In this document: one piece after another, positions 6,058 to 54,352 of the stretch | How positions within the stretch are numbered: the stretch's first letter is position 1 | Layout: the number at the start of each line of letters is the position of its first letter | NCBI RefSeq assembly: GCF_026151205.1 | Contig: NC_087081.1 | Location: 9,049,246-9,109,245 of the forward strand | Source of the DNA: Bolinopsis microptera | Taxonomy: Eukaryota; Ctenophora; Tentaculata; Lobata; Bolinopsidae | Reading direction: 5' to 3' | DNA length: 60,000 nt | Translations under genes and position numbers: made by a program | Notes under the pieces: generated by a model | What the model was told of the DNA's origin: nothing | Database searches by the model: none | The model's input: the letters and a program-made list of their open reading frames with translations, nothing else

Positions 6058-7655
6058 TAGCACGATGCGTTACTGTGCCGCGACACTCAATTATGTGCAC
6101 TCAATTATGTGCACTCAATTATGCTTCTCGATCAGCGAAATGCGCTACTGTGCCTCGCCGAGCTGCGATGAATTTCGACCGTTGTTACTGGTTTGGCCCA
6201 GCGCGCGCTACTTCGCAGCACTTGCCATCGAGAAGAAAGCGGCGCGCGCTACTTCGAAGAAATTTAGACGATTGTAGCGAGATGCACTACTGGTCCGCGC
6301 CGCGCATATTCTCGTAGATCGGCGAGATGCACCACTGGGCCTCGCCTTATAGGTTTATAACCTACCAGGACGCGCACCGAGTTGGATTCGTCGACGGTCC
6401 AATATATGGAACAGATATTTTACGAGTATCACCCGTTAAAGCCTCGCCGAGCTAGGAAAGATTGACATCAAAAATCAATTTAGACGAGTAACTTCCGTCA
6501 ACTAAACGATCAATTGAAATCGTCGATTAATAAAATTTAAATTTTGTTTTATTAAATACTCAAAACATTAAATGTTAAAGTAGCTAATCTTAAATTTGAT
6601 CCTTCGAACAGCTGTTGAGCTGAGCAATGAAACGCAAACATAATCTTAGCAAAATGAATATATTTCTTTTATCTTCAGCATTTAATCAGTCACATAATCT
6701 GAGAATATCAATGGTTAGTTTGAAAATGTCAAAAATTCTCATCAAAAAGGTAGTAAAGTCTCAAAAAATTAATTTAGCATCTCGTCAAAATGGAATAGTT
6801 TAAAATCGGAACAAAATTAATGGCATATACTATAAAATGTGAAGTCTGCAGTAGTTCATTAAATCAAAAAGATGCAATTCAAAAATGTTAAAGTATGAAG
6901 TAGCCCTCAATTTTTAAATGAATTCTTTGTATTTGCCCGACAAGAAACATTTTGATGATTTTCAAACTAAACTTTTTGAAAAAGTAATTTTTTATGATTG
7001 CAAGGCGATCTCGGAAGCGGGTGGGATTTGTTATACGTTATATGACCTGCCGCGCAAGTACGAGTGCGCGGCTCCCCCTCATGTATCGTAAGAACGATAA
7101 TGGAACGACCGTGGGGGTCACGACGTGATACAAAGCGGAATTGGGGAACTTAAAGGCGGAGGTGGGGCGGATTGTGGTAGGTTCACTTTACACTTCTCCA
7201 AGTCAGTTAATAGAAAACGTAAGACCGCCATAAATGTTGACTATTATTTGTATTTGATCACAAGAGGGGTAAGGCAAAGTGCAAAGAAACTGCTGCATAT
7301 AACTTAACGCATAACGGGTGATATAGTACTCGTAAAATATCTGTTCCATATATTCCAGGATATCTAGGTTCCATATATTCCAGGACCGTCGACGAGTCCA
7401 ACTCGGCGCGCGTCCTGGTAGGTTGTAAACCTACAACATATAACTGATGCTCAAGCTGCTGCTGTCGCGCGCGCGCGCCCATAGCAGTAGTGAGCAGCAG
7501 TGAGCAGCAGTGAGCAACATAACAGTGAGCAGCAGTTATTTGATTCACGATTTCAATCCTTCCTAGCTCTGAGCTCGGCGAGGCCCAGTGGTGCATCTCG
7601 CTGATCTACGAGATCAGAATATGCGCGGTGCGGCTCAGTAGTGCATATATTTATA
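6058..7655. mobile_element. Nested inverted-repeat element
   Basis: The segment 6277-6475 (GAGATGCACTACTGG, GTAGATCGGCGAGATGCACC, GTCCAATATATGGAACAG) reappears inverted and reordered at 7314-7650. Its 5' part (6058-6160, GATGCGTTACTGTGCC and GCGCTACTGTGCC) reappears inverted at 54130-54240. The interior 6470-7020 is AT-rich without coding signal. This looks like a composite foldback element, probably with later insertions, one being the ~100-bp element at 7028-7133. Confidence 0.5.
7028..7133 (+). mobile_element. ~100-bp hairpin-rich mobile element, copy 1
   Basis: Matches the copies at 19752-19854 and 54250-54344. Ends are TTGTTATACG and GTGATACAA, with a GC-rich hairpin in the centre and the GACCGTGGGGGTC string near the right end. 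Flanking octamers GGTGGGAT (7020-7027) and AGCGGAAT (7134-7141) agree at 5 of 8 positions and differ only by transitions, as expected of an old, decayed target duplication. This is the most diverged copy. Confidence 0.7.
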
Positions 7656-7960
7656 AGCGTGTCTTCACTGCGCAATGCCGAATGCACGCCGGGCCACAGG
7701 AGGAGCTAAGTGCAAAGAAACTGCCACTAACTGCTACTAACTGCCACTAACTGCCACTAACTGCCACTAACTGCCACAAACTGCCACTAACTGCCACAAA
7801 ATGCCACTAACTGCTACTAACTGCCACTAACTGCCACTAACTGCCACTAACTGCTACAATCGCGCCCACGCATTTGCGCGCGACAGTAGCAGTTAGTGGC
7901 AGTTAGTGGCAGTTAGTGGCAGTTTGAGTTAGTAGCAGTTAGTGGCAGTTTTTATGCGCG
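7434..7960. repeat. Foldback minisatellite arms (CTGCCACTAA / TTAGTGGCAG), left
   Basis: Around 14 near-exact copies of the decamer CTGCCACTAA (variants CTGCTACTAA, CTGCCACAAA) fill 7721-7858. After a GC-rich core with GCGCCCACGCATTTGCGCGC, the complementary decamer runs 7885-7950. A second array of GTGAGCAGCA units lies at 7487-7535. The same architecture is found inverted at 19227-19590, including the flanking string AGGAGGAGCTAAGTGC. The ORF across 7258-7596 is a product of the repeats. Confidence 0.8.
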
Positions 7961-7999
7961 TCGGGATTTCAAATCGAGCGCTCATCAATTTTTATAATA

Positions 8000-8794
8000 G
8001 CAAGTCCGCAGCGTTTAGAGCTGCATTGTTGATTACTGGGCCGCGCTCACAGCTCAGCCTGTCATTCCGCCGAATCTCTATTCATTAATGAACATGATAG
8101 CCTGAGGTCCCCAGGTAACATTGTTGACTAAACCAAAGTGTGCACGTTGCGCTAGATGTCAAATGTTGCAGATAGCGTATACGTTTTTTAAAACTATGTT
8201 TTGATTTGATTTAACTTAACTTGTAGTAAACGGTCGGCCGTTTTACAACACGTCAATATGACTGCTTGTGTTACTGTTAGTTTCGACATTAAATATTTTG
8301 TTCTCGCATGAGTATATAAATGTTTTATATGAATTATGAAATGAGAAGTCGTGTATTGTGTAATAGATTCAGAAAACTCGTAAATGTGCAAGTATATGAA
8401 TATTTATATCATATCCATTGAATTATAATTATATTCATGGGACCAGCAAAAGCTCACAGTTAACAGCATTTATTTTTATTTATGATAAGATGATAAGTTC
8501 GTTATGAGCAATTTTTAATTTAGTTCGTATCAGGCTAGGAGTCTAGTAATCGAGTTTTATTTGTTAATTAAAAAAACTTCTCTACGGTATTAGGTAAACT
8601 GCTGTGATAGATCGGAGCGCAGCAAAAAATTTAATATGTAATAGCTTGTCCTGGACCGAATTCTACCAAATATTATCACTACAAGTATAACACTTTTCGG
8701 ATTAAAAAGGGTGCTGTCCAAACTATGAGTATGTTAACAGTGCGCGGTGATATGATTGAAGCTGAAGTCAGCACTAAAAATTAAAGTAGATATT
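8000..8794. other. AT-rich stretch, no gene seen
   Basis: No coding or RNA signal found. The segment 8050-8125 (CCTGTCATTCCGCC ... GCCTGAGG ... CCAGGTAA) is a diverged partial copy of part of the inverted-repeat arm at 9467-9595, so at least this part is old repeat. Confidence 0.5.
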
Positions 8795-10136
8795 ATTATT
8801 AGAAAATATATGAATTTGGGACAAAATAATTTACTATCGAAGGAAATAAATATTAACTTTTTGATAAGAAAAGCGATTACTAACTACACACTACAGTTAC
8901 ACAAACACTGCATGGCAATACGATTACAAATTGTTTAAATGTTAAATCCGGGTATCGCTATTAGTATTGTGCTATTGTGCCAAAATTACAATATTATATG
9001 GTCAATCGTAATCATTTGCAATTTGGAAGACCCCTCTGCTGATATGTAAACGACCCCTTATATTAACTTGATTATAGCAAACCGCGTGATGTTTATTGAT
9101 CATCAGTTCGATATGACGATAGTTATGAGAAATGCTACAAAACTACAATTTCCATCACCAGTTTTAGAACTAAACGCTTGATTGACGGTTCAGAACTTTA
9201 TTTGAATAACAGGGCCTCCCACGGATTAAACAGTTTTGTGCGGAGAAAGAAGTGAAGAGAGTACGAAGCCAAAGAGTTCTCCGACAATTGTTCCAGCTAG
9301 CCTCACCGCAGCAACGCCAACAGCAAGCAGGGACTTATCCATGCAACCTATACAACGCTGACCAAGAATGGACATGCCACGGTACCACTATAATATTTGC
9401 TTCGATTCTCCGTGATAGCACTAGCAGTAGCAGAATTTGCTGCTTGTAATTCCTGGGCGTTGCTGAACCTGTCATTCCGCCCTATCTGCTATAGGCATAT
9501 TTTTAATCGCCATAATATGTTCAATGTTAAATCAATGTGTTTAACTTAATAAATACAAAAGCCTGAGCGAGGTACCGTTCCCAGGTAAATTCATCTTTGC
9601 AAGTTGAATTTGCGTTTCTGAAACCACTCTCTGCACTGGTAATTGTATTTAAAAGGGAACACAAAATGATGTACGTGACCAAAATTATTCCCCGCGCGAC
9701 GCAATTAGATTCTCTTTCAGAATTAAGTTTCAGTTTCTGGGTAATTCGCGCGTAAAATCATATTTGCACGTGTGCGTTCCATGTTCTCAGAATTAGGCAA
9801 CGGTAAGTTTAATCTTGAACTTTAACTGTTTTGAAACAGGTGCTGTTATTTCATGCTGGGAATCCCAAAAAGTGCTTGATCGGCCAGTTCATAATTGTGT
9901 CTTGCTAAATACTTGGTTAGTTTCATTATGCTTCGACTAATCATCACTGTTGGATTGGGGATGGTATTCAACTGTTGAGGGCCTACTGTAACAGCCATTG
10001 ATACGCTTATAGTTATCAGACAGCAACTAACTGATATCCAATGGGTCTCAGCCATAGAACAATACAGGCTCAACGGTGGCTCGGAAAAGTATAATCTTCA
10101 TGGTCTTATATATGATTTTGGTCTATTAGAACGAGT
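8795..10136. repeat. Large inverted repeat, left arm (~1.35 kb)
   Basis: Reverse complement of 17782-19143. Identity is very high by eye (roughly 98 percent): in a 200-bp sample I saw two substitutions and one 5-bp indel. The inner end is at TTAGAACGAG (10127), the outer end near the TTAGAAAATATA string at 8798. Homology stops abruptly at both ends. An open frame of 75 codons (9846-10073, minus) is identical in the two arms; that reflects the recent duplication and is not by itself evidence of coding. Confidence 0.9.
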
Positions 10137-10225
10137 TTTAAGTGAAATATATCCTCCAGAGATGATTACTAATATAAATAATACTTCAGTTCGTGAAACT
10201 GACTTTTTAGATATTTATAGTCTTA

Positions 10226-11224
10226 GGCCCGTATTCACCAACCTTTAGGTCATACTTAAACAGCGTTTTAAGTATGGGGTCGCACTTAAAAAGGAGTTTA
10301 AGTGGCAACTTTAAAAATGGTATTCACCAAATTCACGATTAAGTGTCACCCTTAATTTTTAAGGGTGACACTTAAAATCCCTTAAATTTGGTATTCACCA
10401 AATCAACTCACGCTTAAGTTGGTACTTAAACTCACACTTAAAACGGATATTTTTAAGGTACACCTATATCAACCTTAAACTACAGACCTCCTACTTAAAA
10501 TATTACTTTCACAGTTTACATACGTAGCAGTCACACATATACATCATGTGTTTGATATTTCCGACACGAGTTTTGATACTTTTGACCCTCACAAAAATTT
10601 TAAATAGTTTGATGAGTAAATGTAATCGTTAAAATCTGAAGTTTATTATTTATTATATACTAGTGCCGTGTGGAACAAAGAAAAACTATAGTGTTTCAAG
10701 AGTAAAAGTAGTAGTAGTGTTTAAAAACAATCTTAATAAAAATAATAAAAATTACGATTAATCCGTTATGTCTCCATTCTCAAGCTCCGCGAGAAGGCCA
10801 GCCGAGAAAGGCAGATCGGTAGAGGTGGCTGTTGGTACCAGGTTGTCCCTGTGGACCCTTAGAATCTCCAACCAAAGTTCGTGCCTTTCAGCCTGCTGCA
10901 TTTGCATTTGCTGCATCTCAATTTGCTGAATTGCCAGAATCCCCATTCTTGCTTGATGAAGCTCTTCTGCCCGATCCTGCAACAGTTCTTCCCTATGTGT
11001 TGCCTTGGGTTGAAATGATGAGGTAGGAGAATTTCTCTGCCTCTCGTTCTTTACCTCCAACGAGGGTTTCCTCTTTGAGCTTGCTGGGATACCGATGCTC
11101 GAACTTGTTGCTGGAGTGCTGGGGCACTCTTGCTCCTCTTCGCCCAGGTTTATTACCTCTACATCTGGTGAGGGGTCAGTATCTTTTAGACTCCCAAGGG
11201 TGGAGTCAGAGTCAGACTCATACT
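10226..11224 (-). mobile_element. PIF/Harbinger-like element fragment
   Basis: The left end GGCCCGTATTCACCAACC and three spaced TATTCACCAA repeats (10233, 10321, 10393) with runs of CTTAAA/TTTAAG resemble the terminal and subterminal regions of animal Harbinger elements. The flank TTA before GGCCCG fits the 3-bp target of that superfamily. A coding fragment of the accessory Myb/SANT-type protein follows. No second terminus and no HARBI1-type transposase are present; the fragment stops at the palindromes at 11224. Confidence 0.55.
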
Positions 11225-11225
11225 T
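10758..11225 (-). pseudogene. Harbinger accessory Myb/SANT-like protein, C-terminal fragment
   Basis: The minus-strand frame is open from the palindrome at 11225 to the stop at 10758, about 155 codons. It starts with a Ser/Asp-rich stretch (YESDSDSTLG), then an acidic-Pro segment, then a Gln/Met-rich heptad region (QQIEMQQMQMQQAERHELW) likely to form a coiled coil, and ends AELENGDITD. This layout is that of the tail of the Myb-like proteins encoded by Harbinger transposons, which help bring the transposase to the nucleus and DNA. The N-terminal DNA-binding tri-helix is missing, so it is a broken copy. The family call is inference from composition and context. Confidence 0.5.
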
Positions 11226-11329
11226 GAGAATTTAGTTAGCCATGATGCAGTGCATCATGGCTAACTAAATTCTCAACTTTATAATATCAGTTGTGTGCAT
11301 CAGATGCACACAACTGATATTATAAAGTT
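11224..11329. repeat. Two abutting near-perfect palindromes
   Basis: Palindrome 1 spans 11224-11276 (26-bp arms around a single G at 11250). Palindrome 2 spans 11275-11329 (27-bp arms around a single A). Both are perfect and they overlap by two bases. Loops of one base are incompatible with a simple RNA stem but fit cruciform extrusion or end-to-end foldback duplication. A similar pair occurs at 53913-53978. Confidence 0.9.
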
Positions 11330-11339
11330 TTCAAATTTG

Positions 11340-11835
11340 TGTGTGGCGAAATTACCCTGATCTTCTGATCCCATTTGTTTGGCGAAGTTTGGCGCGAAAT
11401 TCGCGCGCGGCTGGCAAAGTCACGCACGTGTATTGGCGAAGTTCGACTACATTTCTACTTCATCCCGGCGATGTTACCCACAGCATGGCGATGTTACCCC
11501 AGCGACCAAATTGCCCATTGTAACACGCAGGCTAGAGCTAGATAAGTAAAATTGGCAGGTATATCAAGGAAATATAATTGAGTTTCAAGTGGTATGGTGC
11601 TTAGCACCGAATATGGTATAGTTTCAGAATGGCGAAGTTACCCCGTATTGCAGGGTAACTTCGCCCTGATTTCAGTGGAACCAATCTAGCTGACTATTCA
11701 TGCCTGGCTGATGTGGTTCATACGAAAACATTTGCTTTACCAATCCTGTTCATATGAGCTATAAACTTTTTCAAGTACTCGTGTCGTATTTTCTAAATAA
11801 CATGAAATATCTGTAATACAAGGCGAAGTTCCCCC
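11340..11835. repeat. Dispersed cluster of a GGCGAAGTTACCC motif
   Basis: At least eight versions of TGGCGAWGTTACCC lie in about 500 bp: near 11343, 11381, 11434, 11466, 11484, 11632, an inverted one at 11648 making a hairpin with the former, and 11822. They are not in a regular tandem array. No coding function is evident in the stretch. Confidence 0.65.
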
Positions 11836-11967
11836 ATTCTACGGTACTATATTTCATGTACACATCTATTTTCCTAACAGTCTAAGTTAAAGCCTAAAGT
11901 TACCGGTACGTGACAAGAACTGCATTAAGTGCACACGTGCGAATTTGATTTTACGCACGAATTAGTT

Positions 11968-12406
11968 TTAAATGTTAGACCAATTAGATTTAGAAATTGA
12001 TCTAATACACAACTTTACTTCTATACACTTCAGTGATTGGGCTGATGACTCCAGTGAAAGGGCTGGTGACTCTAGCGAAAGTGCTGGTGACGATGAGAAA
12101 GACCATAAACCAGGGATTCCTTCGGGAGCATGTAAGATTATATCCAAAGTTTGTTCGCCAATGGGGTGTGTCTGGGTGTCAAAGATCTTCAAGGTGGGTG
12201 CTACTTGTGATGAACTCTAGAAGGATGGGATGGTAATACTCGGTCTGGCCGTCTGGAAGCCCATAGAATTCCAGTTCAGAAACTGAGTAAGGAGGTGCGG
12301 CTACTGATGAGAAGCCTCCTTTATAAAGTTTATTTGGGTTAGAAACGACATCTGGGTCCCTACCCTCGCACAAGGTTATTCTCAATTTTCTTGTTGTGTT
12401 CCACAA
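11968..12406 (-). pseudogene. Unrecognised coding segment with a one-base frameshift
   Basis: On the minus strand 12406-12179 is open (it includes SVSELEFYGLPDGQTEYYHP) and closes at TGA; the adjacent frame, open from 12192 to 11968, continues with FDTQTHPIGEQTLDIILHAP. Reading the two in succession needs a single-base shift at about 12185. The upstream edge follows a TTGGTAG string that could be a splice acceptor. Near the end a 21-bp unit is repeated about three times (LSLESPALSLESS). I do not recognise the family. It may be a decayed transposon gene or a host exon. Confidence 0.35.
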
Positions 12407-12821
12407 CTACCAATAAGTATACTTACCTTTATGTACATTGTACATGATATCTTTCTATAACCATATTCTCTATACAATATTGTTTCTCCTATAATTATAT
12501 ATCGTACATGACAGACATAAAATTTATCCTGACTGCCATCTTCTGTGTTCTCAGTTTACAATGGTTTCCTGCGGACCCTAATTCTTTCTTACAAAAACGT
12601 AGTCTGTGCTATCAGCTAGTTATAAGTGTCCAAGACTACAAATAATGTTTTTCTTCTATCCGCACCCCGGGATCGAGATGTAAGCCTTCTAAAGAATTAC
12701 CTTCAGCAGCTCCATAACTTAAGGTAGATACCATACTATACTATTTGTATCACGTCGCGATCCCCACCGACATGTCATTACTTTCTCTTAGTAGATCTTG
12801 AAGTGAAAATCTTTTCCGGTT

Positions 12822-13031
12822 TTAGCGTTGATGTCGCTGAAAATTTCCGTGGTTGTTAGACTTGCCAAAAGCAAAAGTTCTTACTTCTTTCTCATCAAGG
12901 TATTCCATTAGCGTTGCATTACCATTAGCCTTAGGTAAAGGTATAAAATTCGATAACTGTTTTATCGTCTTATCGGTATCCGCGTGGTTTTCTGATCTAA
13001 TTCTACCGGCCGAATGGCAAAGCGATAAACA
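12822..13031 (-). CDS. Unrecognised 69-codon open segment
   Basis: Open on the minus strand from 13031 to a stop at 12822. The translation has coding-like composition, including IKQLSNFIPLPKANGNATLM and EKEVRTFAFGKSNNHGNF, with balanced charged residues and no low complexity. There is no ATG near the start, so it would be an internal or 3' exon. An adjacent frame upstream (NVYRFAIRPVELDQK) also looks coding, suggesting another frameshift. No family recognised. Confidence 0.3.
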   Translation of the reverse strand, partial: CLSLCHSAGRIRSENHADTDKTIKQLSNFIPLPKANGNATLMEYLDEKEVRTFAFGKSNNHGNFQRHQR

Positions 13032-13087
13032 TTATTTTTCATAACACATCCGCGTTTTCCAACCAGTTTAAGTTAAATAAGGCATAC

Positions 13088-14321
13088 TTGGTCAGTTCGT
13101 ACAAAAGTCGTAAAAAATTCGTACAGTTCGGCACCTTTTTTCAGTTCGGGATTAGTTCGGGAAAAATTCGCCTCATAAATTTTCGAACTTGGATTTAATC
13201 GAAAGAACTTAAATTAACTCAGATGTCAGGCCTTTGATAGATAAGTACCTTTTCAAACGACCGGTGCTTTTAGCGAGGTTAAAATACTCTTTATCTACCA
13301 GTACCATTATCACGAAATCAGATATGGGTCAAGATTTATTTTATGGTTTAAAATCATTAAGAATTTTGTTCAAAGAAAGCGACCACTAAAAATAATTTCA
13401 TTTGATTTTAATTGGATTTCTTTGCGATATCACTACTAATATATCATAGAGATCAGGATTGATGCTACAGCACTCATTAAACGATTGCATTTTATAAACC
13501 AGATTTTAAAGTTATTTAATTGAATTGAAAAGCTGTTTCTAAAACAACCGTTCCATAGGTGCACAGCACATCGAAAAGTAGAAAATTCAGTGCTGAACTT
13601 TTATAGATGAACGTGCAATTTAAAAGAGATCGACAACTTTGTAAAGCAGATTATAATGACATATAGTACTCCCACTCCCGATACATCTCAACCTGTGAGA
13701 GGGTATATTCTTGCCATCAGTTTAACTGCGTCAAACTTACGATGGTCTAGACGCGATATTTTCTCCTGCGTGGTGCTATATAACGAGAATTACATAACAG
13801 AGATTTTATTTTATTTTATACTCCAAATAGTCGGCATCAGTTTGTGACTGACTTTTATACCACTGTACATCAGGGGTCGCTCCTATAATGAAATTTACCA
13901 AGGCAAGAATGCCTCCCTCCGTGACAAGTAACACTGTTCACTACATCCCAAGACTGAACATCACTGAACTTTGAAATGTTTTGGGCTGGGAAAACTATGT
14001 GCTCTATATAAATATAATCGCTGCTATTGACTTCTTCCTCGCTATAATCGGTCAGTATTATTAACGAACGAATCTAGTATATATTATAACCAATATATAC
14101 TAATAATCTCAATAGATGTGTGTGTGTGTGTCTGTCTAGTGTCTGTCTGTCTGTATAGTGCCCAAATAGTGCCGACAAAACTCTGACGAAGCCAAATGAT
14201 TAAGGTTTTTCAAATCGGTCGGTGGTAAGTGGTTTAAAATTCGGTAAAAATTCCTCAGCAGCTTTTTAAAATTCGTACAGTTCGGCACCTTTTAAAAGTT
14301 CGTACAGTGCGTACTGACCAA
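13088..14321. mobile_element. Possible TIR element with TTGGTCAG ends
   Basis: The left end TTGGTCAGTTCGTAC and the right end GTACTGACCAA are inverted. Both ends also carry the direct repeat AATTCGTACAGTTCGGCACC (13118 and 14270). The interior has short GT/CTGT microsatellite runs (14116-14155) and no gene I can support; the 63-codon frame at 13656-13847 is probably chance. Superfamily unknown. Confidence 0.4.
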
Positions 14322-14598
14322 CTATGAAATAAGGTTAACGGTGACCAGTCCTGTGGACAATGACATGGAGCCTATTACGTATGACTATAAATTTATAATA
14401 ATGCAATTTACAGTTGCATTTTGACGTACTTTTGGGAGTACCAAAAGCGCGCAAACTGAATATATTTAACGCGCGAATCTGTTTTTGAAATAATGAATAA
14501 ACTGAAAGTGAAAGAGAATCTAATTTGTAATTACATCGCGCGGGGAATAATGTTGGTCACGTACGTGTAATAGTAAAACTATACTATAAGTATACGAA

Positions 14599-15880
14599 TA
14601 CCTTATCGGACCTTATTTGGACGGACATTACATGAACGGACACAATTATGAACGGACATTAATATGAACGCTCGAAGGCATTCAAAACCATCAAAAATCC
14701 GAATTTTGTTCAATATTTTTTTCAACGTTTTTTAAATTTCAGCAAATGATTTTTAAATCCATTTTTTATACAGTAAGTAAGAAAAGCAGTCATTAAGCAG
14801 TAAAAATGTTAAAATATTTGTACATGATCAGTGTCTAATATCACATATCATCTTCATCAAATGGGTTTTCGTGCATGAAATAGTCCATGCTTAAAACATC
14901 AGTGATTTCTAGCTTTATGGAAACCTTTTTTAAAAATCAAACTACCCCGGTCCTGCATTTCAGTGTTACTGTTAACTTTTACAAGCTATTCGGCGTGAAG
15001 TGGTTTTATCTTAGACAACTTAAGGTTAACCTTAACATCACGTGGAGCTTTCCTAGCATTGTTTCATTGCCGCCCCCGAGTAATATGAACTATAACAACG
15101 TCGGACAATGTCCTTGGCAACACGATTTACCGTGATATCTAGAGGCTGGAGCAAGTTTGTCATGTTGGCGGGGACTAGTTCATGAACTTTGTTGTTGAGT
15201 GCCATAATTTCGTTGACTTTTTTCCGCCAAGTGACCCTTTTTTTATTATCTAGACACTTATTTTACTTCGGAGTATTCCAACAGCCATATTGTTACACAA
15301 GTGCAACCAGCCAATTACAGGAAGCCGAAGGATTTGTTTTTAGCCAGTGACGGTTAAGGTAGTGTGTACCATACTTTCTTCGCCCGAGACTTTGCTGCAA
15401 TGTGCAGCTCCTCATTTAACCCTCACACCCGATTTCTCGAGTATTCGGCTGAGTACACCGGGGGGCTGCATAGACCACTCACGATCCTTAGCTGAATGTC
15501 AACGACACTCACCCCACGACCAGGCAGGCAGTGGGATTTGAACCCGCAACCTCACGATTGCAAAGCTGGCTAACCAACCTCACGATTGCAAAGCTGGCTA
15601 ACCAACTGCGCTACCTGGCCGCATCATATACTAGTAGTTTTCTGTGCCTCCGGCAGACCAAGGAGAACCTTTCCGTCGTTAACTTACGGCACAATAAAGT
15701 TCTCAAAGTTGTCATATTCTGGACAAAAAGTTCGAAATGGAAAAATTTTTGAAAAAATTTCAACGGACTTAAACTTGGACGGACATTAATTGAACGGACT
15801 TTATTTGAACGGACATTAAGATGAACGCTAGGGCCTCCAGCGTTCAAGTAATGTCCGTCCAAATAAGGTCCGATAAGGTA
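14599..15880. mobile_element. TA-target TIR element (CCTTATCGGACC family)
   Basis: Termini are TA|CCTTATCGGACCTTATTT at 14599 and its complement ending GGTA at 15880, with inverted identity of about 35 bp and subterminal GAACGGACATTA repeats. Flanking TA dinucleotides fit a Tc1/mariner-type TA target. No transposase is visible. A SINE was inserted into it at about 15247-15640. Degenerate relatives of the subterminal repeat lie at 16060-16250. The first five bases of the TIR (CCTTA) match those of the element at 21973. Confidence 0.7.
15247..15640 (-). mobile_element. tRNA-headed SINE, copy 1 (duplicated tRNA arm)
   Basis: On the minus strand a tRNA-like head (box A TAGCGCAGTTGGTTAGCC, box B GGTTCAAATCCC) is followed by a body containing CTCATTTAACCCTCACACCC and CGATCCTTAGCTGA on the plus strand and a 3' tail with CCAATTACAGGAAGCCGAAG. 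The head carries a 28-bp tandem duplication (units from 15549 and 15577) covering part of the D and anticodon arms. Related to the copies at 30820 and 45640. The tail here is uninterrupted and serves as the empty-site reference for the palindrome at 45890. Confidence 0.8.
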
Positions 15881-16487
15881 CCTAACGATTCCCTTAAAAA
15901 TAAGGGTAATCTATAAATCACTTTGACGCGGGACTGGGAAGCTATTCTCGCACATAACTTAGGAATCCAAAATTACTAGGTCTAGAGAAGGTTCCAAAAT
16001 CAAACCAGCAATGATAAGTTTAACTTTATCTTATTGAACTTTATTTAATTTTAATTTTGAATGGACACAAATTCAGATTGAACGCTTGAGAGTCTGAGAA
16101 GAGGCCCCAGCTAGGGCATAGAGTACATATATTAATATCCGTTTAACCTTAAATAGTCTGCCCATTTACGTTCAAGTCAACGCCCGTACGTAAACGTTTG
16201 AATGCCTCCGGGCTCCGAGCGTTCATTTTGATGTCCGTTTTTAACTTTAAATGGATACAATGAGATAAAACTATGTTGTCGGAATTAGACAGTAAATAAA
16301 CAATAATGAATAAAAATAAGTCACTTATAGTATAGCAATAAGCAAATAATAATGAAATTATTGCTCCTTAATTCGTGAATTTTTCGTAAGACGCAAACTT
16401 GCGTTAACATAAATAAGGTCTCGCTGCTTGTTAACTGTGAGGCGGTTTTTTTTGTTAATCGTCCAGTCGTACAAGCTCCAATTCGTC
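15880..16487. other. Non-coding stretch with degenerate TIR fragments
   Basis: Contains diverged fragments of the GAACGGACATTA-type repeat around 16060-16250 (GAACGCTTGAG, CGTTCATTTTGATGTCCG). No coding region supported. Confidence 0.45.
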
Positions 16488-16790
16488 TCACAGGGTGAGG
16501 CTGATGTCGATTGCGACAGCGCTTTCATTGCAAAACTCTGTAGTTGCGAGTTCGGGTACCTCGCAACCGAAGTTGCTCCACCAAGAGACTGGACCGTCAG
16601 AATCTTGGCTAAAACTTGAGGCAGCGTCAGTAGAGAATAAGCCTCTTTTCTCTCGGTAGAACGTGTACTGCGAAAGTATCTTCTTCTTTGTTGCGCCGTC
16701 ACACCACGTGTCCATGACATCTAGAAACTCCTTCCAGACATCCTGATTCGTGTGTTGATCATATCCCTGATATATAAGCCGGGTGAACAC
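16488..16790 (-). pseudogene. hAT transposase C-terminal dimerisation-region fragment
   Basis: A 100-codon minus-strand frame holds DGPVSWWSNFGCEVPELATT, which matches the pattern of the hAT dimerisation region (a WW pair, then a P-x-LA-x-x-A helix). In hAT transposases this C-terminal part mediates multimerisation and lies around the last catalytic Glu. The upstream catalytic domain and BED finger are absent, and the typical ATS-x-x-SER ending is not found, so this is a remnant. The overlapping frame 16358-16720 is a shadow. Confidence 0.45.
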
Positions 16791-16799
16791 AAAACCCTA

Positions 16800-17781
16800 C
16801 TGAATGTAGGGGGGAATGGAGCTCGAGCCACCTTTTGTTGGCAAGACTAACCATATCGCTTTTATAGTTTCAATTGCGAAAAGCAAAATTTGCTAACTTT
16901 AAGGTGAACAGATAATATTTGTAATAAATTACACCGATGAAACCAACAGGAATCTTAAGACTATTGTCTGAAAATTTAAGCAAGACTATTATCGGCTCGA
17001 GAATTGAGCATAAATAGTCGACTTCTATCCAGAAACACTAGCGGAGTTTTAGGGCCTGAAACGTGCATGCATGCGCGCTAAAACTCTTTTAGCTCATCTA
17101 GAACATGTAAAATTGCGGTAAACGATGGCGTGTCGACGTGTTAATATTTTAAATCTGATTAACGTTCCTTTATATATGTTCCGAACGTTAAAATCTTTTA
17201 GCGAACGCGTTCACAAACTATTTTTAGTGAGCGTTCCGTACGTTCACTACAACTAAGCCGGGTGTCTATCAAAGTAAATACTCATACTTTGACTCTTTGA
17301 CAATGACATCAACTGTGTGGAACCCGATATCCTAAAAAGAGTAGATATTGGCAATATAATCCTTAATCTGTTTAACCGTGCTACTGCTATTAGTATTGTG
17401 GATGGAGATTGGAGATGCTCCCGCCCATTCATGCATGGCGGATTATCAATATTGTCCCAATTATGTCCAAAATAGGAAATCTCACCGAGGCTGACAACTA
17501 CATTAAATGGATCACCATCATCAATTGTCAGCAAAACTCTCAACCGCATGATCCTTATCAGTTGAGAGAGACCCGCTCGGGGTATTCTGATGAACATACT
17601 GACAGCATGCCTACGGTATCCGTATAGTATTCCAAGGCCCATAAGTTAGGCTGATTCGACACTATGGAAAAATTCATTCTTGCAGGAGTTATGCAAGGGA
17701 ATACGCTACCTGTTTGTCATTACTTATATTGAAGCTGTGCTGTGCAAAAGTCATAGAAGGTCGTGATCTTGGCTTCAAACC
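16800..17781. other. Core of the large inverted repeat, nothing firm
   Basis: A minus-strand open frame at 17253-17642 and a plus-strand one at 17409-17627 overlap; neither has a recognisable domain. GAACG-type inverted motifs occur at 17163-17250 (TTCCGAACGTT, GCGTTCCGTACGTTC). Confidence 0.4.
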
Positions 17782-19143
17782 CGTTCTAATAGACCAAAAT
17801 CATATATAAGACCATGAAGATTATACTTTTCCGAGCCACCGTTGAGCCTGTATTGTTCTATGGCTGAGACCCATTGGATATCAGTTAGTTGCTGTCTGAT
17901 AACTATAAGCGTATCAATGGCTGTTACAGTAGGCCCTCAACAGTTGAATACCATCCCCAATCCAACAGTGATGATTAGTCGAAGCATAATGAAACTAACC
18001 AAGTATTTAGCAAGACACAATTATGAACTGGCCGATCAAGCACTTTTTGGGATTCCCAGCATGAAATAACAGCACCTGTTTCAAAACAGTTAAAGTTCAA
18101 GATTAAACTTACTGTTGCCTAATTCTGAGAACATGGAACGCACACGTGCAAATATGATTTTACGCGCGAATTACCCAGAAACTGAAACTTAATTCTGAAA
18201 GAGAATCTAATTGCGTCGCGCGGGGAATAATTTTGGTCACGTACATCATTTTGTGTTCCCTTTTAAATACAATTACCAGTGCAGAGAGTGGTTTCAGAAA
18301 CGCAAATTCAACTTGCAAAGATGAATTTACCTGGGAACGGTACCTCGCTCAGGCTTTTGTATTTATTAAGTTAAACACATTGATTTAACATTGAACATAT
18401 TATGGCGATTAAAAATATGCCTATAGCAGATAGGGCGGAATGACAGGTTCAGCAACGCCCAGGAATTACAAGCAGCAAATTCTGCTACTGCTAGTGCTAT
18501 CACGGAGAATCGAAGCAAATATTATAGTGGTACTGTGGCATGTCCATTCTTGGTCAGCGTTGTATAGGTTGCATGGATAAGTCCCTGCTTGCTGTTGGCG
18601 TTGCTGCGGTGAGCTGAGGCTAGCTGGAACAATTGTCGGATAACTCTTTGGCTTCGTACTCTCTTCACTTCTTTCTCCGCACAAAACTGTTTAATCCGTG
18701 GGAGGCCCTGTTATTCAAATAAAGTTCTGAACCGTCAATCAAGCGTTTAGTTCTAAAACTGGTTATATATATTATGGAAATTGTAGTTTTGTAGCTTTTC
18801 TCATAACTATCGTCCTATCGAACTGATGATCAATAAACATCACGCGGTTTGCTACAATCAAGTTAATATAAGCAATAAGGGGTCGTTTACATATCAGCAG
18901 ATGGGTCTTCCAAATTGCAAATGATCACGATTGACCATAGGCATATGATATTGTAATTTTGGCACAATAGCACAACACTAATAGCGATACCCGGATTTAA
19001 CATTTAAACAATTTGTAATCGTATTGCCATGCAGTGTTTGTGTAACTCAAGTTAGTAATCGCTTTTCTTGTCAAAAAGTTAATATTTATTTCCTTCGATG
19101 GTAAATTATTTTGTCCTAAATTCATATATTTTCTAATAATATA
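17782..19143. repeat. Large inverted repeat, right arm (~1.36 kb)
   Basis: Reverse complement of 8795-10136. Begins at CCCGTTCTAATAGACC and ends at TATTTTCTAATAATA, beyond which homology is lost. Carries the same 75-codon frame on the plus strand (17842-18069) as the left arm. The near-identity of the arms, compared with the decayed core, points to a recent duplication or gene conversion. Confidence 0.9.
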
Positions 19144-19226
19144 AAATTGGTTTAAGACCAATACAATGTCAAGAAGTCATGTGGCATGTAAGGCGCCAAA
19201 GACAAATTGCTAAAAGGCGCGGCGCA

Positions 19227-19592
19227 ACTGCTGAAAACTGCCACTAACTGCTACAAACTGCCACTAACTGCCACTAACTGCCACTAACTGCTACAAACTG
19301 CCACTAACTGCTGCAAACGGCGCGCGCAGTGCGTGGGCGCGATTGTAGCAGTTAGTGGCAGTTAGTAGCAGTTAGTGGCAGTTTGTAGCAGTTAGTGGCA
19401 GTTAGTAGCAGTTAGTGGCAGTTTGTGGCAGTTAGTGGCAGTTAGTGGTAGTTAGTGGCAGTTAGTAGCAGTTAGTGGCAGTTTCTTTGCACTTAGCTCC
19501 TCCTGTGGGGCGTGCATGCTGCTCACTGCTCACAGTGAGTAGCAGTGAGCAGCAGTGAGCAGCAGTTTCTTTGCACTTTGCCCCTCCTGTGA
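19227..19592. repeat. Foldback minisatellite arms, right
   Basis: CTGCCACTAA-type decamers at 19227-19318, a GC-rich core GCGCGCGCAGTGCGTGGGCG, then complementary decamers at 19345-19484, followed by the string GCACTTAGCTCCTCCTGTG and a GTGAGCAGCA array at 19537-19566. The order is the inverse of that at 7434-7960, so the two are inverted copies flanking the large inverted repeat. Confidence 0.8.
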
Positions 19593-19751
19593 ATCATCTG
19601 ATCTTTAAACCATGCACAGTAAAAGTAAAACCTATTTCTTTAGGATGATGATTGACCATTGTTAATGATCAGGCCTGCAGCGCGCGCTACTTCGAAGCAC
19701 TTGCCGGCTAACATTTCAAAAGTGATTAAGCACGCTCGATTTCTTTACTCG

Positions 19752-19854
19752 TTGTCATACGTTGTATGACCCGCCGCGCACGAAGTGCGCGGCTCCCCCT
19801 GTATCGTCAGGACGATAAAGGTGAAACGACCGTGGGGGTCGCAACGTGATACAA
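19752..19854 (+). mobile_element. ~100-bp hairpin-rich mobile element, copy 2
   Basis: 103 bp, flanked by a perfect 8-bp direct repeat TTTACTCG (19744-19751 and 19855-19862). The left end TTGTCATACGTTGTATGACC and the complement of the right end, TTGTATCACGTTGCGACC, are imperfect terminal inverted repeats. Inside are the palindrome GTCATACGTTGTATGAC (19754-19770), a perfect 9-bp stem with GAA loop (19773-19793), and a TATCGT/ACGATA stem. It has no coding capacity. The 8-bp duplication fits hAT, P or Zisupton-like transposition; the TIR start does not identify which. Confidence 0.85.
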
Positions 19855-19884
19855 TTTACTCGAGAATGGCGAAATTTGAGAAAT

Positions 19885-21640
19885 TTAAATTAATGAATTG
19901 TATGACGTTTTTATTACTTGCTGTGAAGTCCGCAATGCCAATTAAATAAATACACAATTAAATAAATACACAATACTATGAGTATGTTATAAATATTCAA
20001 TGATTGTTTTTTTACGAAAAAAAAAAATATTGACATTTCTTACATTTGACAATTAGGGCCAGAAAAGGGGCTGTTGATACTTTAATAGTATTAGTACATA
20101 CTTTCCTGGAACAAATCAACCGTATTTTCATAAACACACCGCAAGAATTATAGGTCAATTGCTATAAGTATATCGTTGCTCCGACCTGGCGTCTAAAATC
20201 TTGGGCAGTATTTCTTGACATGCCAGTTCCAAACTAAGCCATTTTGTTTAAAGTCGGCACATATAATCAAGGCCAAGGTGCAAGGAAAAAAGAGGACCAG
20301 TCCAGTCATGAATTTACACGATTACAAATGTAGACCCTCTTCCATAGACCACGTGCTAGACTAATTAGAGGTGCAGGCACAGTGCACACGTACCCAATTT
20401 GATAATTGTATTAAGATTTAATTTAAAATAACTCATTATCTCAACGTCCGATCCCTGTAGATAAGAATTGACAAATGGGCAATTGAATTTAAATTAATGA
20501 ATTGTATGACGTTTTTATTATTTGCTGTGAAGTCCGCAATGCCAATACACAATACTATGTTATAAATTATTCAATGATTGGCTTCTTTTACGAAAAGTAA
20601 ATTTTTTTGGACATTTCTAACATTTGACAATTAGGGCCAGAAAAGGGGCCGTTGATACTTGAATAGTACATACTTTCCTGGAACAAATCAACCGTATTTT
20701 CATAGACACACCGCAAGAATTATAGGTTAATTGCTATATCGTTGCTCTGACCTGGCGTCTAAAATCCTGGGCAGTATTTCTTGAGTCTTGACATGCCAGT
20801 TCCAAACTAAGCCATTTTGTTTAAAGTCGGCACATATAATCAAGGCCAAGGTGCAAGGAGAAAAGAGGACCAGTCCAGTCATGAATTTACACGATTACAA
20901 ATGTAGACCCTCTTCCATAGACCACGTGCTAGACTAATTAGAGGTGCAGGCACAGTGCAAACGTACCCAATTTGATAATTGTATTAAGATTTAATTTAAA
21001 ATAACTCATTATCTCAACGTCCAATCCCTGTAGATAAGAATTGACAAATGGGCAATTACATTTAAATTAATGAATTGTATGACGTTTTTATTATTTGCTG
21101 TGAAGTCCGCAATGCCAATACACAATACTATGTTATAAATTATTCAATGATTGGCTTCTTTTACGAAAAGTAAATTTTTTTAGACATTTCTAACATTTGA
21201 CAATTAGGGCCAGAAAAGGGGCCGTTGATACTTGAATAGTACATACTTTCCTGGAACAAATCAACCGTATTTTCATAAACACACCGCAAGAATTATAGGT
21301 TAATTGCTATATCGTTGCTCTGACCTGGCGTCTAAAATCCTGGGCAGTATTTCTTGAGTCTTGACATGCCAGTTCCAAACTAAGCCATTTTGTTTAAAGT
21401 CGGCACATATAATCAAGGCCAAGGTGCAAGGAGAAAAGAGGACCAGTCCAGTCATGAATTTACACGATTACAAATGTAGACCCTCTTCCATAGACCACGT
21501 GTGCTAGACTAATTAGAGGTGCAGGCACAGTGCACACATACCCAATTTGATAATTGTATTAAGATTTAATTTAAAACAACTCATTCGTCATTGTCTCAAC
21601 GTCCGATCCCTGTAGATAAGAATTAACAAATGGGCGATAA
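19885..21640. repeat. Three-copy tandem repeat, 573-604 bp units
   Basis: The landmark TAATGAATTGTATGACG occurs at 19891, 20495 and 21068. Each unit runs to AAGAATTGACAAATGGGC and contains the strings ACCTGGCGTCTAAAATC and CATAGACCACGTG. Units 2 and 3 are closer to each other than to unit 1, which has a ~30-bp extension. No open frame is conserved, so this is a satellite-like expansion and not a gene array. Confidence 0.9.
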
Positions 21641-22926: not shown

Positions 22927-25900
22927 TTGGAAATTTAGCAGACTTTCGCAGTTCACTATTAGTTCACTGTTTATGTTTTTCTTCCAGTTCCAGTCTCAGG
23001 TTTATTTGAATCAAAGGCTCACTGTAACGGCGGGTACAGTGTGAACAAAACCAAACTTCAGTGTTCAGGACATAATTTCCGATCTGAATTTCCATGCATG
23101 TTATTTTTGTCAGAATTTCATCTATTATTATTATTATAAAACAGGATCTTACCGACAAAAATGATTCTTAAAAATTCCTTAATGCGGTAAACTGTACCCT
23201 TGAAAAAGATTTTCCCAACATCTGTTGCATGCAGCTATATCTTTAATTTCGTTCAATTCATACAAGTTGTCCATTTGCAAACTTCTACTATTTAAATCAC
23301 TTCTTAAAACCGATAACAAGTTCATTCTAGGTCTCCCCAATCTTCCAATGAATAAATTATCTGATTCAATAGCAAATGAGAGAGCCGTTTGGGCTGGGGT
23401 GTTCTCCATACTCCTGAGAATGTGTCCAAACATTTTCCACCGCTGGTGTTCAATACGCTTGGATAACTTTTCAACTTTGCACCTTTCATACAATGCTTTG
23501 TTGCTTATCATACCTTTAGGCCATTTGATGTTTAAAATGGACCTGAGGTGTCTACGATGGAGTGTGTCCATTTTCTCCATGGTTGCTTTCTTAGGACTCC
23601 AACTATTTGAGTTGTAAATCAATACAGATACAACTTGAGCATCGTATAACCTCAGCTTTCTTTCAAGGGATATTTTCTTACCAGACAGCCAAACTTTTTC
23701 AAAGTTCTTAAAAGCAATCTCAGCTAGGATTCTTCTTCTTTGAATGTCCTTCTCAGTACACAGTAAGGAACCTAGTGACTTGTTACTTCTCCATGGTTCG
23801 TTATTAGCTAATGGCTGACCGTTTGTATCTTTATCAGATTTTGTCGCTAGGTAGAAGGTACTGAATTCAGTTTTACTTTCATTTACTTGGAGGTTCCAGT
23901 CTTTGAGAATCTCCTTCACTGTAGGAAGGAAAATTCTCAGTTTCTCGATGTCCTCGTCAGCAAAGTCACAATCGTCTGAATATTCCCACTCAGTTGGAAA
24001 ACCTAGTTCTGATACTGGTGGGTTTGGTCTCCCAGATACAGCTCTGAGGTGGTGTAAGGCTGCTGCAAGAATAAGTGTGAATAGCTTTCCAGATAAACTG
24101 TCACCTTGAAAGGCTCCGAGTAAACTTTCAAACTCTTCCGACAGTGAGGAGTTAACACGAACTCTAAGGAGAGTATTCGATAGAAGGTATTGAACTAAAC
24201 GAATGTCGTCCTCCGAACAACCAGCATCTTTCAAAACATTGATGATAGTGTCCCTTTTCACGGTATCAAAAGCTCTACTCATATCAATACCCATTTTGCT
24301 AAATGTCCATTTCTTCCTCATTACAACAGATATGAGCATTCTCTGAGCCCACACAATGTCAGAGCAGCTCCTACCTCTCTTGTAAGCACTCTGCCATGGC
24401 ATGGTGTAGTTGTCAATTCTACTCTCAACCCGTTTTAAGGCAATTTGAGTGAGCATCTTCCTCGATCCGTTTAACAGTGTAAGTGGTCTAAGGCTTGTGA
24501 GGGGACCCTTAGGTTTACCTGGCTTCTGTAGAGGAGTCACAATACCTTGTCCTATCGAACTTATGTATTTGTTCCCACTAAATGACTCGTTAATTGCCTC
24601 AGCATACTTCTCAAAAGTGATTGGATGGGCGTACTTTATCAGCTCATTCTGGAGATTATCTGGACCACTGGCACGGTTTGATTTGAGTTTACTTGCAGCA
24701 AGTTTAACTTCAACTGGTGTGATGGGGTTATCAAGTGGTTTTGGATCGCAGGTAAAAGGTTGCAGGCCAGCTTCAACTCCTTCTGTTAGTTGTTTTTCGA
24801 AGAAAGATTTCGCTGTGTTTGCTTTCCCTAAATCAGTACCAATAGGGTTGTTGTTGATATCATTGACCACTATGTTACCCGACTTTCTTATTCCAGCTAA
24901 AGATCTTGAAGCTTCAAACATCTTTCTAGCATCGTCAGTGTTATTTATTTCTTCCGCTAGAGCGTCAGCCTTCATGTTATTTATTTGCACAAGTCTCTTA
25001 GAAATGCTATTCTGAATCTTTCTAACTTCTCTCCTATCTCCACTAACATCACTACCATTTGGGGCTGATTTGATCTTCAGAGTCTGATCACGCTTTTTAG
25101 CAACTAATGAATCTACTGTTAGATCACTGGAGAAATTTTGTTTAGAGGATTTCCCTGGTATAGTTTCTTCAGCACACGCACGTATGTCACTAAAAAGTTC
25201 ATTCATTTTCTCATTTGGGTCATCTGGATAAGTTTTACCCGATAATCTTTCAGCAATCGCACTTTGATATTTCTGTCTGAGTTCTTTATCAATGTAGAGA
25301 GTTGAACAGTCAAACTGAGTGCTATCTGATTTTTTGGTTTTGTGAATGAGAACATGATTTTTCAGCGTTAATCGAGTTACAACAGGTTTGTGATCAGATC
25401 GTAACTCAGCGCCTCCGTATGATCTGCTGTCCTTTATTAAAACCGTAGACCTCCTCCTGCAAAGCACATAGTCAAGTTGAGCGTATATAGGAGTATTTCT
25501 CTTAGTCCTGTGTTCACCAGTCCAAGTTAGTTTGTGCTTACTTGGATGATCAAACAAAGTATTGCATGCTGTTAGGTCTTCTTTAACCATCAATTCAAGC
25601 AAATGCTCCCCATTTTCATTTCTAGTCCCAATACCATGTCTACCTATCAAACCTTCCAGACCTAATTGTTCATCAACCCTAGTTCGTTTACCCAGCTTTG
25701 AGTTGAAATCTCCGCAGTGGAACATTTCCCATTTTGATGGAGTAGAGGATACATTGTGTAAATCTCTATAGAACTGAGACAGTTTGTCAGGGTGTTGTTG
25801 AGCACGAAGAGATGTGAGACCATAACTGTTGATGATTCTGAAATTCTTATTACTACCACCCTTGAGAGGAAAACAAAAATCAATATACCCAACTCTATCA

Positions 25901-26330
25901 GAGATCTGTTTGAAAGTTGTGATGAAAGGTTGCAGTTTAGGGCTAATAACAAATCCAATACCCCCATGACATTGTTCTTTCTGATCAAAAATTAACAGTC
26001 TGTAGTTGTTGTGAAGTATGATATCCACCTGATTAGTGCACTTAGTTTCTTGTAGTCCCACAATGTCCATACCGTACCTTTTGCAGTCATTACCCAGTAA
26101 CTCCCTCTTCAAAAGTCGTTCAGACCGAGTTTTATCATTAACCGCAGTGTCTGGACTACCCAAGCCCCTAACATTCCAAGAACAAACAGCGAAAACAAAT
26201 AGCACAGCACACAGTGTTGATCCCATCTTGATTTTGGGCGTAGACTCTCCAGCCATAGCTGTATGTGGGTCGTCACTCCTACATTCTACCTATTTCATCT
26301 GATTAATTTAATTGCAGTGATTTGTCATTT
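22927..26330 (-). mobile_element. RTE-like non-LTR retrotransposon
   Basis: One long ORF with endonuclease and RT, a 3' non-coding region of about 250 bp (23178 down to 22927) and an upstream region of uncertain length. The 3' limit is inferred from the end of homology with the paralogous locus at 28885. The single-ORF layout of about 1000 codons with a short 3' region is typical of the RTE group. The target duplication was not identified. Confidence 0.8.
23179..26256 (-). CDS. RTE-like endonuclease-reverse transcriptase, intact ORF
   Basis: 1025 codons from ATG to stop without interruption. The N-terminal AP endonuclease nicks target DNA: conserved SWNVRG near residue 26 (Asn28), GLQETK (Glu70), HCGDFN (180-185), LDYVL (261-265) and SDHKPV (287-292). 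The RT copies the element RNA onto the nick: LRPLTLLNGSRK (589-600), GIDMSRAFDTV (656-666), GAFQGDSLSG (714-723) and YSDD (759-762), a YADD variant with Ser. The C-terminus has the RHLRSILNIKWP and RWKMFGHILR strings usual in RTE proteins. All key residues appear present, so this copy could be recently active. The antisense open frames are shadows. Confidence 0.9.
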   Translation of the reverse strand: MAGESTPKIKMGSTLCAVLFVFAVCSWNVRGLGSPDTAVNDKTRSERLLKRELLGNDCKRYGMDIVGLQETKCTNQVDIILHNNYRLLIFDQKEQCHGGIGFVISPKLQPFITTFKQISDRVGYIDFCFPLKGGSNKNFRIINSYGLTSLRAQQHPDKLSQFYRDLHNVSSTPSKWEMFHCGDFNSKLGKRTRVDEQLGLEGLIGRHGIGTRNENGEHLLELMVKEDLTACNTLFDHPSKHKLTWTGEHRTKRNTPIYAQLDYVLCRRRSTVLIKDSRSYGGAELRSDHKPVVTRLTLKNHVLIHKTKKSDSTQFDCSTLYIDKELRQKYQSAIAERLSGKTYPDDPNEKMNELFSDIRACAEETIPGKSSKQNFSSDLTVDSLVAKKRDQTLKIKSAPNGSDVSGDRREVRKIQNSISKRLVQINNMKADALAEEINNTDDARKMFEASRSLAGIRKSGNIVVNDINNNPIGTDLGKANTAKSFFEKQLTEGVEAGLQPFTCDPKPLDNPITPVEVKLAASKLKSNRASGPDNLQNELIKYAHPITFEKYAEAINESFSGNKYISSIGQGIVTPLQKPGKPKGPLTSLRPLTLLNGSRKMLTQIALKRVESRIDNYTMPWQSAYKRGRSCSDIVWAQRMLISVVMRKKWTFSKMGIDMSRAFDTVKRDTIINVLKDAGCSEDDIRLVQYLLSNTLLRVRVNSSLSEEFESLLGAFQGDSLSGKLFTLILAAALHHLRAVSGRPNPPVSELGFPTEWEYSDDCDFADEDIEKLRIFLPTVKEILKDWNLQVNESKTEFSTFYLATKSDKDTNGQPLANNEPWRSNKSLGSLLCTEKDIQRRRILAEIAFKNFEKVWLSGKKISLERKLRLYDAQVVSVLIYNSNSWSPKKATMEKMDTLHRRHLRSILNIKWPKGMISNKALYERCKVEKLSKRIEHQRWKMFGHILRSMENTPAQTALSFAIESDNLFIGRLGRPRMNLLSVLRSDLNSRSLQMDNLYELNEIKDIAACNRCWENLFQGYSLPH

Positions 26331-31711: not shown

Positions 31712-31712
31712 A

Positions 31713-34653: not shown

Positions 34654-34661
34654 AAAACACT

Positions 34662-54129: not shown

Positions 54130-54240
54130 TTTGCGTTGGCACAGTAGCGCATTTAATTTCGCCGATCAAGCATGAAGCCTCATTGAGTGCGCGGCGCGGC
54201 ACAGTAACGCATCGCGCTACAAAACTTCACATAGCCATGT
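54130..54240. repeat. Fragment of the 6.06-kb composite element
   Basis: Inverted match to 6058-6160 (GCGGCACAGTAACGCATCG, CACAGTAGCGCATTTAAT). Confidence 0.6.
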
Positions 54241-54249
54241 GTATACGCG

Positions 54250-54344
54250 TTGTATCACGTTGTGACCCCCACCACCCACGGTCGTTTCACGATACAGAGG
54301 GAGCCGCGCACTTCGTGCGCGGCGGGTCATACAACGTATGACAA
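54250..54344 (-). mobile_element. ~100-bp hairpin-rich mobile element, copy 3
   Basis: 95 bp in inverse orientation to the other two copies: starts TTGTATCACGTTGTGACC, ends GGTCATACAACGTATGACAA. Perfect 8-bp target duplication TATACGCG (54242-54249 and 54345-54352). Keeps the GCCGCGCAC/GTGCGCGGC stem around a TTC loop. Confidence 0.88.
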
Positions 54345-54352
54345 TATACGCG

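Follow-up and report, generated by a model that had tools for sequence, protein, structure and literature searches.

What kind of sequence is a unit of about 100 bp that stands three times in one stretch of the genome of the ctenophore Bolinopsis microptera, starts with TTGT, and is bordered in two of its three copies by a perfect 8-bp repeat? The stretch, called the window throughout, comprises 60,000 nucleotides (NC_087081.1, positions 9,049,246 to 9,109,245 of the forward strand). The unit very probably belongs to a family of non-autonomous cut-and-paste elements (MITEs) that is very abundant and has been active recently; its members measure mostly 95–109 bp and would be moved by a putative transposase that reads their palindromic ends. 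The family is ordinary in kind and unusual in its size, the design of its ends, and an internal seam.

Copies, spread, and target sites

The three copies (106, 103, and 95 bp, the last in reverse orientation) and their parts are listed in Table 1. An earlier, sequence-only reading had placed the copies at exactly these positions, and the anatomy it described is present: imperfect TIRs starting with TTGT, a palindromic end with 7-bp arms and a GTT spacer, and a 9-bp GC-rich stem with a GAA triloop. Both of the duplications it named are perfect, and the 106-bp copy, for which it implied none, matches at 5/8 bases. The window gave no match in searches against Rfam or for tRNAs.

Table 1. Positions of the MITE copies, their parts, and related ends in the window
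Feature	Position	Strand	Remark
Reference MITE copy, 103 bp, TTGT...ACAA	19752..19854	+	Identical copy at G000:C9:12820869-12820971
Left target-site duplication TTTACTCG	19744..19751	.	
Right target-site duplication TTTACTCG	19855..19862	.	
Left-end terminal palindrome, 7-bp arms, GTT spacer	19754..19770	+	From the fold; pairing conserved across families
9-bp GC-rich stem with GAA triloop	19773..19793	+	From the fold; absent from some copies
Third stem	19798..19821	+	From the fold
Hypervariable internal seam, A/G-rich	19817..19822	+	Window coordinates counted by hand
Older MITE copy, 106 bp, duplication not intact (5/8)	7028..7133	+	
MITE copy, 95 bp, reverse orientation	54250..54344	-	
Left target-site duplication TATACGCG of the 95-bp copy	54242..54249	.	
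Right target-site duplication TATACGCG of the 95-bp copy	54345..54352	.	
End of another clan family, TTGACCATTGTTAATGATC	19652..19670	+	Family has duplications at loci L008 and L068
Degenerate clan-family end TTGATTCACGATTTCAATC	7540..7558	+	Like the left end of L117:784-908
Clan-family end TTGTAGCGCGATGCGTTAC	54204..54222	-	Like the right end of L117:784-908

The host assembly searched comprises 264,652,675 bases. It contains 1,938 exact matches (983 + 955) to the left-end 21 bases of the 103-bp element and none to the reversed control pattern, so that the repeat stands far above chance. A search with the whole 103-bp copy gave 1,258 candidates, of which the best 40 were scored; of the 41 matches listed, 40 cover 101 or more of the query's 103 bases, and the remaining one covers bases 1–52. 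From 38 stretches fetched around the best matches, 47 distinct copies of the family were obtained, and 77 copies with flanks were collected in all. As matched, the copies are 73–139 bp long (58/77 within 95–109 bp) and are thus too short to hold a transposase gene. Thirteen copies of the family are identical over 100 bp and are spread over 10 contigs, from which a recent burst is inferred. Copies were chosen by similarity and, hence, the sample is skewed toward young ones; diverged subfamilies suggest a long activity. The sequence-only reading had named one larger repeat containing all copies as an explanation that would do away with transposition. The flanks do not form such a repeat: among 37 loci, 30 of 74 flanks resemble the flank of another locus, and the best-connected flank resembles only six others. 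Some copies adjoin CCCTAA repeats, which fits TTAGGG telomeres. Among the listed matches in the open-licence PMC literature, no title or abstract deals with ctenophore MITEs or with these ends.

The target-site duplication is the main evidence for transposition. Of the 47 copies in the first set, 34 are bordered by a perfect 8-bp duplication and 4 by one that matches at 7/8 bases; among all 77 copies the duplication is perfect in 45 and matches at 7/8 in 13 (58/77 at 7/8 or better), and 19 match at 6/8 or fewer. The 45 perfect duplications represent 44 different sequences; that of L150 (CCCTAACC) lies inside a CCCTAA repeat and is little informative, and the two L052 copies in the count share their flanks and may go back to a single event. 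Since perfect 8-mers are many and exact 9-, 10-, or 11-mer duplications are found in 0/77 copies, the length of the duplication is 8 where it is intact. The inverted ends are, thus, combined with a duplication of fixed length in many copies, and the consistency across the genome that had been asked of the family is borne out.

The family also inserts into its own older copies, where the empty site is directly visible. Such insertions lie in the terminal palindrome of the older copy at GTATGACC, with a duplication matching at 8/8 bases in L044 and at 7/8 in L047 and L050. At the same site of a copy of the family, a 59-bp element of another family has inserted with the duplication GTATGACC at 8/8 (L059:148-206), and the same type of nested junction was judged by eye to be present in 6 of 100 left-end places listed (of 160 matches). 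One stretch within the end of the element has, thus, been used repeatedly as an insertion site. Together with the 45 perfect duplications, these nested copies uphold the claim of a DNA-transposon–like movement with an 8-bp duplication. For the choice of target in general, 59 perfect sites of two families were pooled on both strands. The first base of the duplication is G at a frequency of 0.47 (background 0.20), five bases outside the duplication A stands at 0.48 (background 0.30), and two bases outside G falls to just 0.07. Individual target sites are no more palindromic than mixed ones (2.86 versus 2.88), and the target preference is, therefore, weak and symmetric.

Small relatives with a common end plan

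At least four other families of the genome share the end plan of the family and its 8-bp duplications, and they are new here. In this plan, TT is followed by two largely complementary arms of 7 bp, between which stands a spacer of 3 nt (mostly GTT or GAT); families built on it are called the clan below. When 314,945 bases were scanned for TTG-N6-G[AT]T at both ends together with an identical outer 8-mer, 40 distinct elements with an 8/8 duplication were found; 35 belong to the own family, and the other 5 represent four families. With each of seven altered end patterns, the same scan gave 0 elements. Repeated on 339,464 bases (overlaps included) with strands collapsed and pairs up to 6 kb apart, the scan gave 53 elements, the longest of 456 bp. 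A relaxed scan (TTG only, up to 400 bp) gave 60 elements, 51 of the own family and 9 others; herein other trinucleotides also scored high (ATT 59, AAT 32, AGT 27), which we read, by assumption, as low complexity and tandem arrays. Because of these scores, the stricter scan is the cleaner control.

The other clan elements with perfect duplications are those at L103 (61 bp), L115 (80 bp), L117 (125 bp), and L059 (59 bp), and one further family occurs at two loci, L068 (238 bp) and L008 (219 bp), each time with a perfect duplication. L065 (249 bp) is less surely a member. Two more candidates, L128 (57 bp) and L088 (298 bp), look like chance or tandem duplication and were dropped.

The 61-bp element is a member of a multicopy family of about 60 bp. 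A search with L103:1356-1416 gave 686 candidates, of which the best 40 were scored; 41 matches were listed, four of them identical over 61 bp. Perfect 8-bp duplications border 14 of 19 distinct copies of 59–67 bp; with two further matches of 79 and 90 bp included, the count is 14/21 perfect and 2/21 at 7/8. The sequence-only reading had placed the family among the smallest DNA transposons, which is fair for elements of 95–106 bp, although the same genome holds these relatives of 59–67 bp. In viral contigs, the exact end of neither the own family nor the 61-bp family was matched.

Since families that differ in sequence share the end plan and the 8-bp duplication, one type of transposase is probably common to the clan. 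Made elsewhere, this putative enzyme would recognize both ends of an element and insert it at an 8-bp staggered cut, leaving the duplications and exact ends that are observed. The recognition signal would be the end itself, that is, TT followed by a 17-bp imperfect palindrome with its 3-nt spacer.

Search for a partner transposon and its type

An autonomous element with the same termini was looked for with end patterns that excluded letters just inside the end; this gave 29 and 160 matches for the left end and 210 for the right. From these, 56 stretches were fetched: 20 covering 21 of the 29 matches, 20 from the 210 (100 listed), and 16 covering 17 of the 160 (100 listed). In 0/56 stretches do both ends surround a transposase, and the partner that the sequence-only reading had called for was, thus, not found in these candidates. 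Judged by eye, most stretches hold a nested insertion, a truncated copy, a copy lacking the GC-rich hairpin, or an older subfamily; some left ends are without a partner end within their stretch (e.g., L043, L045, and L113). The longest open frame (651 aa, L113) is that of a reverse transcriptase and lies next to a solitary end-like sequence, the second longest (300 aa, L046) is a CCCTGA repeat, and all others are below 200 aa. Nor did any clan end pair with perfect duplications, up to 6 kb apart in the 339,464 bases, exceed 456 bp.

Which transposase could serve the family was also approached from the transposases of the genome. Superfamilies with 8-bp duplications include Sola1, Novosib, Zisupton/KDZ, and P, and quite possibly the elements are derivatives of one of these whose ends here happen to start with TTG. 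The 8-bp duplication agrees with such a descent, and nothing else in the anatomy speaks against it. However, neither the P model PF21787 nor the KDZ model PF18758 matches the genome, which weighs little as both models were silent in 14 control genomes too.

hAT transposons likewise make 8-bp duplications, and they are abundant in this genome, with at least 150 matches to PF05699 (best 150 of 366 candidates scored). A descent of the elements from a hAT transposon by deletion, with unusual ends, is nonetheless quite unlikely. Transposon ends were read wherever there were two copies to compare or a pair of TIRs. For hAT, they are 3' ends only, with boundaries set by the limits of BLAST alignments between two copies, and in four families they read CAG, CAGG, CAAGGG, and ACAG, not TTG. 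For 11 of the 150 matches, the 2 kb that follow downstream were scanned; the exact pattern of the own-type end is absent there, and a single AT-rich look-alike of the clan end was seen (L099).

Merlin and MULE transposases are both present as well, with 58 matches to PF12762 and 88 to PF10551. Many of the Merlin matches are intact open frames, unlike the case of Mnemiopsis leidyi, for which an extract of PMC8101967 mentions only remnants in one assembly. The same extract gives conserved GG ends and duplications of 8–9 bp for Merlin, a range that includes the 8 bp found here. A derivation from Merlin or MULE elements is, however, very improbable. The ends of three Merlin families (GGTAACTCGG, GGCAACTTGTACG, and GGCAGT; the L123/L128 and L124/L136 families gave no clear ends) all start with GG, as expected, and the present element starts with TTGT. 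In 18 Merlin stretches only one-mismatch look-alikes of the own-type end occur, none of them at the Merlin borders read. Among nine MULE regions, end pairs were found in three, all starting with G, and the exact own-type end in none. The contrast is also seen in bulk: clan-like ends number 5 in 126,560 bases near transposase genes (the one at L099 and four inside Merlin copies) versus 188 in 128,385 bases around small elements. The statement that the termini are unlike those of hAT and Merlin therefore stands where ends can be read in this genome.

Several other structures were noted at the transposase loci. At L086:1330-4593, perfect 20-bp ends GGCAGTATCGAGATAGCCCG, bordered by the duplication TAATATTG, enclose a frame of 501 aa with a MULE domain; ends of the GGCAGTATCGAGATAGCCCG type also flank a Merlin frame at L131:943-2471, so that two transposase types are found with one kind of end. 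Arrays of short palindromes or of tandem units stand beside the Merlin genes at L119, L121, L125, and L131 (TGGTCCATGGACCA), at L123 and L128 (GGCTACTAACCGG), and at L126, L129, and L130 (ACATTAAGACA).

Palindromic ends, folding, and the internal seam

For a test of the terminal palindromes, ends were picked without regard to palindromy. The 16 clan ends form 4.56 of 7 possible pairs, compared with 2.65 (sd 0.30) when arms are shuffled between ends, and 0/20,000 shuffles reach the observed value. With both L008 ends taken out, as they belong to the same family as L068, the remaining 14 ends form 4.43/7 pairs versus 2.73 shuffled, again with 0/20,000. The register matters: in these 14 ends, a one-base shift of the inner five pairs lowers their number from 2.93 to 0.64 or 0.93, and inner-arm slides of -2 and -3 give 1.64 pairs and a slide of +2 gives 0.86. 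Poor palindromes exist too (1/7 pairs at the right end of L103, 2/7 at the left end of L059). The pairing of the end is, hence, kept across the families of the clan while the sequence changes.

Such pairing could reflect two half-sites in double-stranded DNA or a hairpin. Folded as DNA, the 103-bp copy reaches -28.2 kcal/mol versus -15.85 (sd 2.24) for 200 shuffles, none of which is as good (z -5.5); the proposal that the whole unit folds into consecutive stems, thus, holds for this copy. The 80-bp and 125-bp relatives fold somewhat better than their shuffles (z -3.35 and -2.16), and the 61-bp and 59-bp elements fold like theirs (z -0.38 and -0.24). The GC-rich hairpin is missing, from the letters shown, in 18 of 100 left-end places listed (of 160 matches), and L052 holds two 79-bp copies without it that carry GTATGAAA on both sides. 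The GC-rich internal hairpin is, hence, dispensable, and a general importance of whole-unit folding was not sustained, given the copies without the hairpin and the 61-bp family. Because of these copies and of the 61-bp and 59-bp elements, half-sites are favored over a hairpin, and a hairpin mechanism is not supported as a general rule. Most simply, the palindrome would provide two half-sites for a dimeric DNA-binding domain. That the elements move instead as single-stranded, hairpin-bearing DNA, with the hairpins as substrate in the manner of IS200/IS605 or integron cassettes, would agree with the folds of the three longer elements and with the conserved terminal pairing, but it is scarcely credible in view of the hairpin-less copies, the 61-bp and 59-bp elements, and a strict 8-bp duplication, which neither of these systems is known to produce.

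Variation within the MITE family is concentrated at one place. In 40 young copies, all insertions and deletions fall into one short A/G-rich stretch, the seam, which occurs as 12 different strings; outside it, each deviating column has one deviating copy, except for one column with four. This count describes young copies only since the 7 most heterogeneous of the 47 copies, which do have insertions and deletions elsewhere, were left out. The 61-bp family shows the same feature: among 20 copies, of which 17 do not differ at all in their first 48 bp, the seam occurs as 14 strings. The choice of copies by similarity hides other variation to some degree. Slippage in runs of A and G could account for the seam of the own family, and the seam fillers of the 61-bp family are not simple runs. 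Our best guess is that the seam arises by repeated breaking and rejoining at a fixed place.

A further-reaching interpretation, which we consider unlikely, joins these features. The families would be non-autonomous branches of a superfamily of animal DNA transposons not described so far, whose end signal is a 17-bp palindrome headed by TT, with GTT/GAT as spacer, and for which about 60 bp suffice, and the seam would record repeated breakage and end-joining, for example in post-excision repair that leaves short fillers. In a bolder version, GC-rich, CpG-bearing insertions would help to spread the ctenophore loop-anchor motif. According to an extract of PMC12221973, loop anchors of the ctenophore Mnemiopsis have in common a GC-rich motif that contains two CpGs and to which CTEP1/2 bind, DNA-transposon insertions occur in >90% of its promoter regions in distal contacts, and the TIRs of placozoan Mutator elements carry a chromatin-loop motif. 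The placozoan case, in which a DNA-transposon end of an early-branching animal bears a motif of loop anchors, would be a parallel.

Compared with other MITEs, the present elements agree in being short, without room for a transposase, with inverted ends, a duplication of fixed length, a high copy number, and nested insertions. They differ in that the own family is very short (about 100 bp) and its relatives are shorter still (59–67 bp), in that the ends are palindromic and common to several families as a plan and not as a sequence, in that no partner transposon appeared in the 56 candidate stretches, and in that one internal seam varies far above the rest. With Merlin (IS1595-type) elements and with hAT elements and their MITEs, they share the 8-bp duplication; they start with TTG, as opposed to GG in Merlin (PMC8101967 in extract and three families here) and CA or ACA at the hAT 3' ends of four families here.

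A seemingly recently mobile sequence of 61 bp offers a minimal natural substrate, from which it may be learned how little DNA a transposase needs, and hundreds of candidate relatives are available for comparison (686 candidates, the best 40 scored). A palindromic end that is common without a common sequence amounts to a testable recognition rule and a handle on the transposase. The elements also provide fresh markers at high density and are candidates for regulatory insertions; in this lineage, DNA-transposon insertions abound in looping promoters (PMC12221973, in extract). The seam may preserve in the genome a record of repair events within a mobile element; if the break-and-rejoin reading is true, every lineage would carry a natural barcode of the repairs it has undergone.

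Other repeats and genes were noted along the way. Short GC-rich repeats of other kinds (TTACCTGGGGACC...; TTGCTCTATCCAGAGCC...; ...GGTTAGGTGAA) lie within and next to elements at L078, L060, L063, L075, and L104. In the window, positions 7694-19508 hold two arms inverted over about 12 kb: 9302-10142 and 17773-18613 are inverted arms of 841 nt with 100% complementarity, and the outer arms, which carry arrays of a 10-bp unit (AACTGCCACT), are 97% complementary over 179 nt. Its borders show no clear duplication, and in the six frames tried it gave no Pfam match above the family cut-off. Elsewhere in the window, frames for a Helitron-like N-terminal part and a PIF1 helicase lie at 31710-37247 (+), a reverse-transcriptase frame of 1,036 aa with an endonuclease domain at 23179-26289 (-), another reverse-transcriptase frame at 1647-2855 (-), and a Cu/Zn superoxide dismutase–like frame at 49002-49802 (-). 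A 573-bp tandem repeat at 20213-21585 is present in three copies, which are 98–99% alike in their aligned parts.
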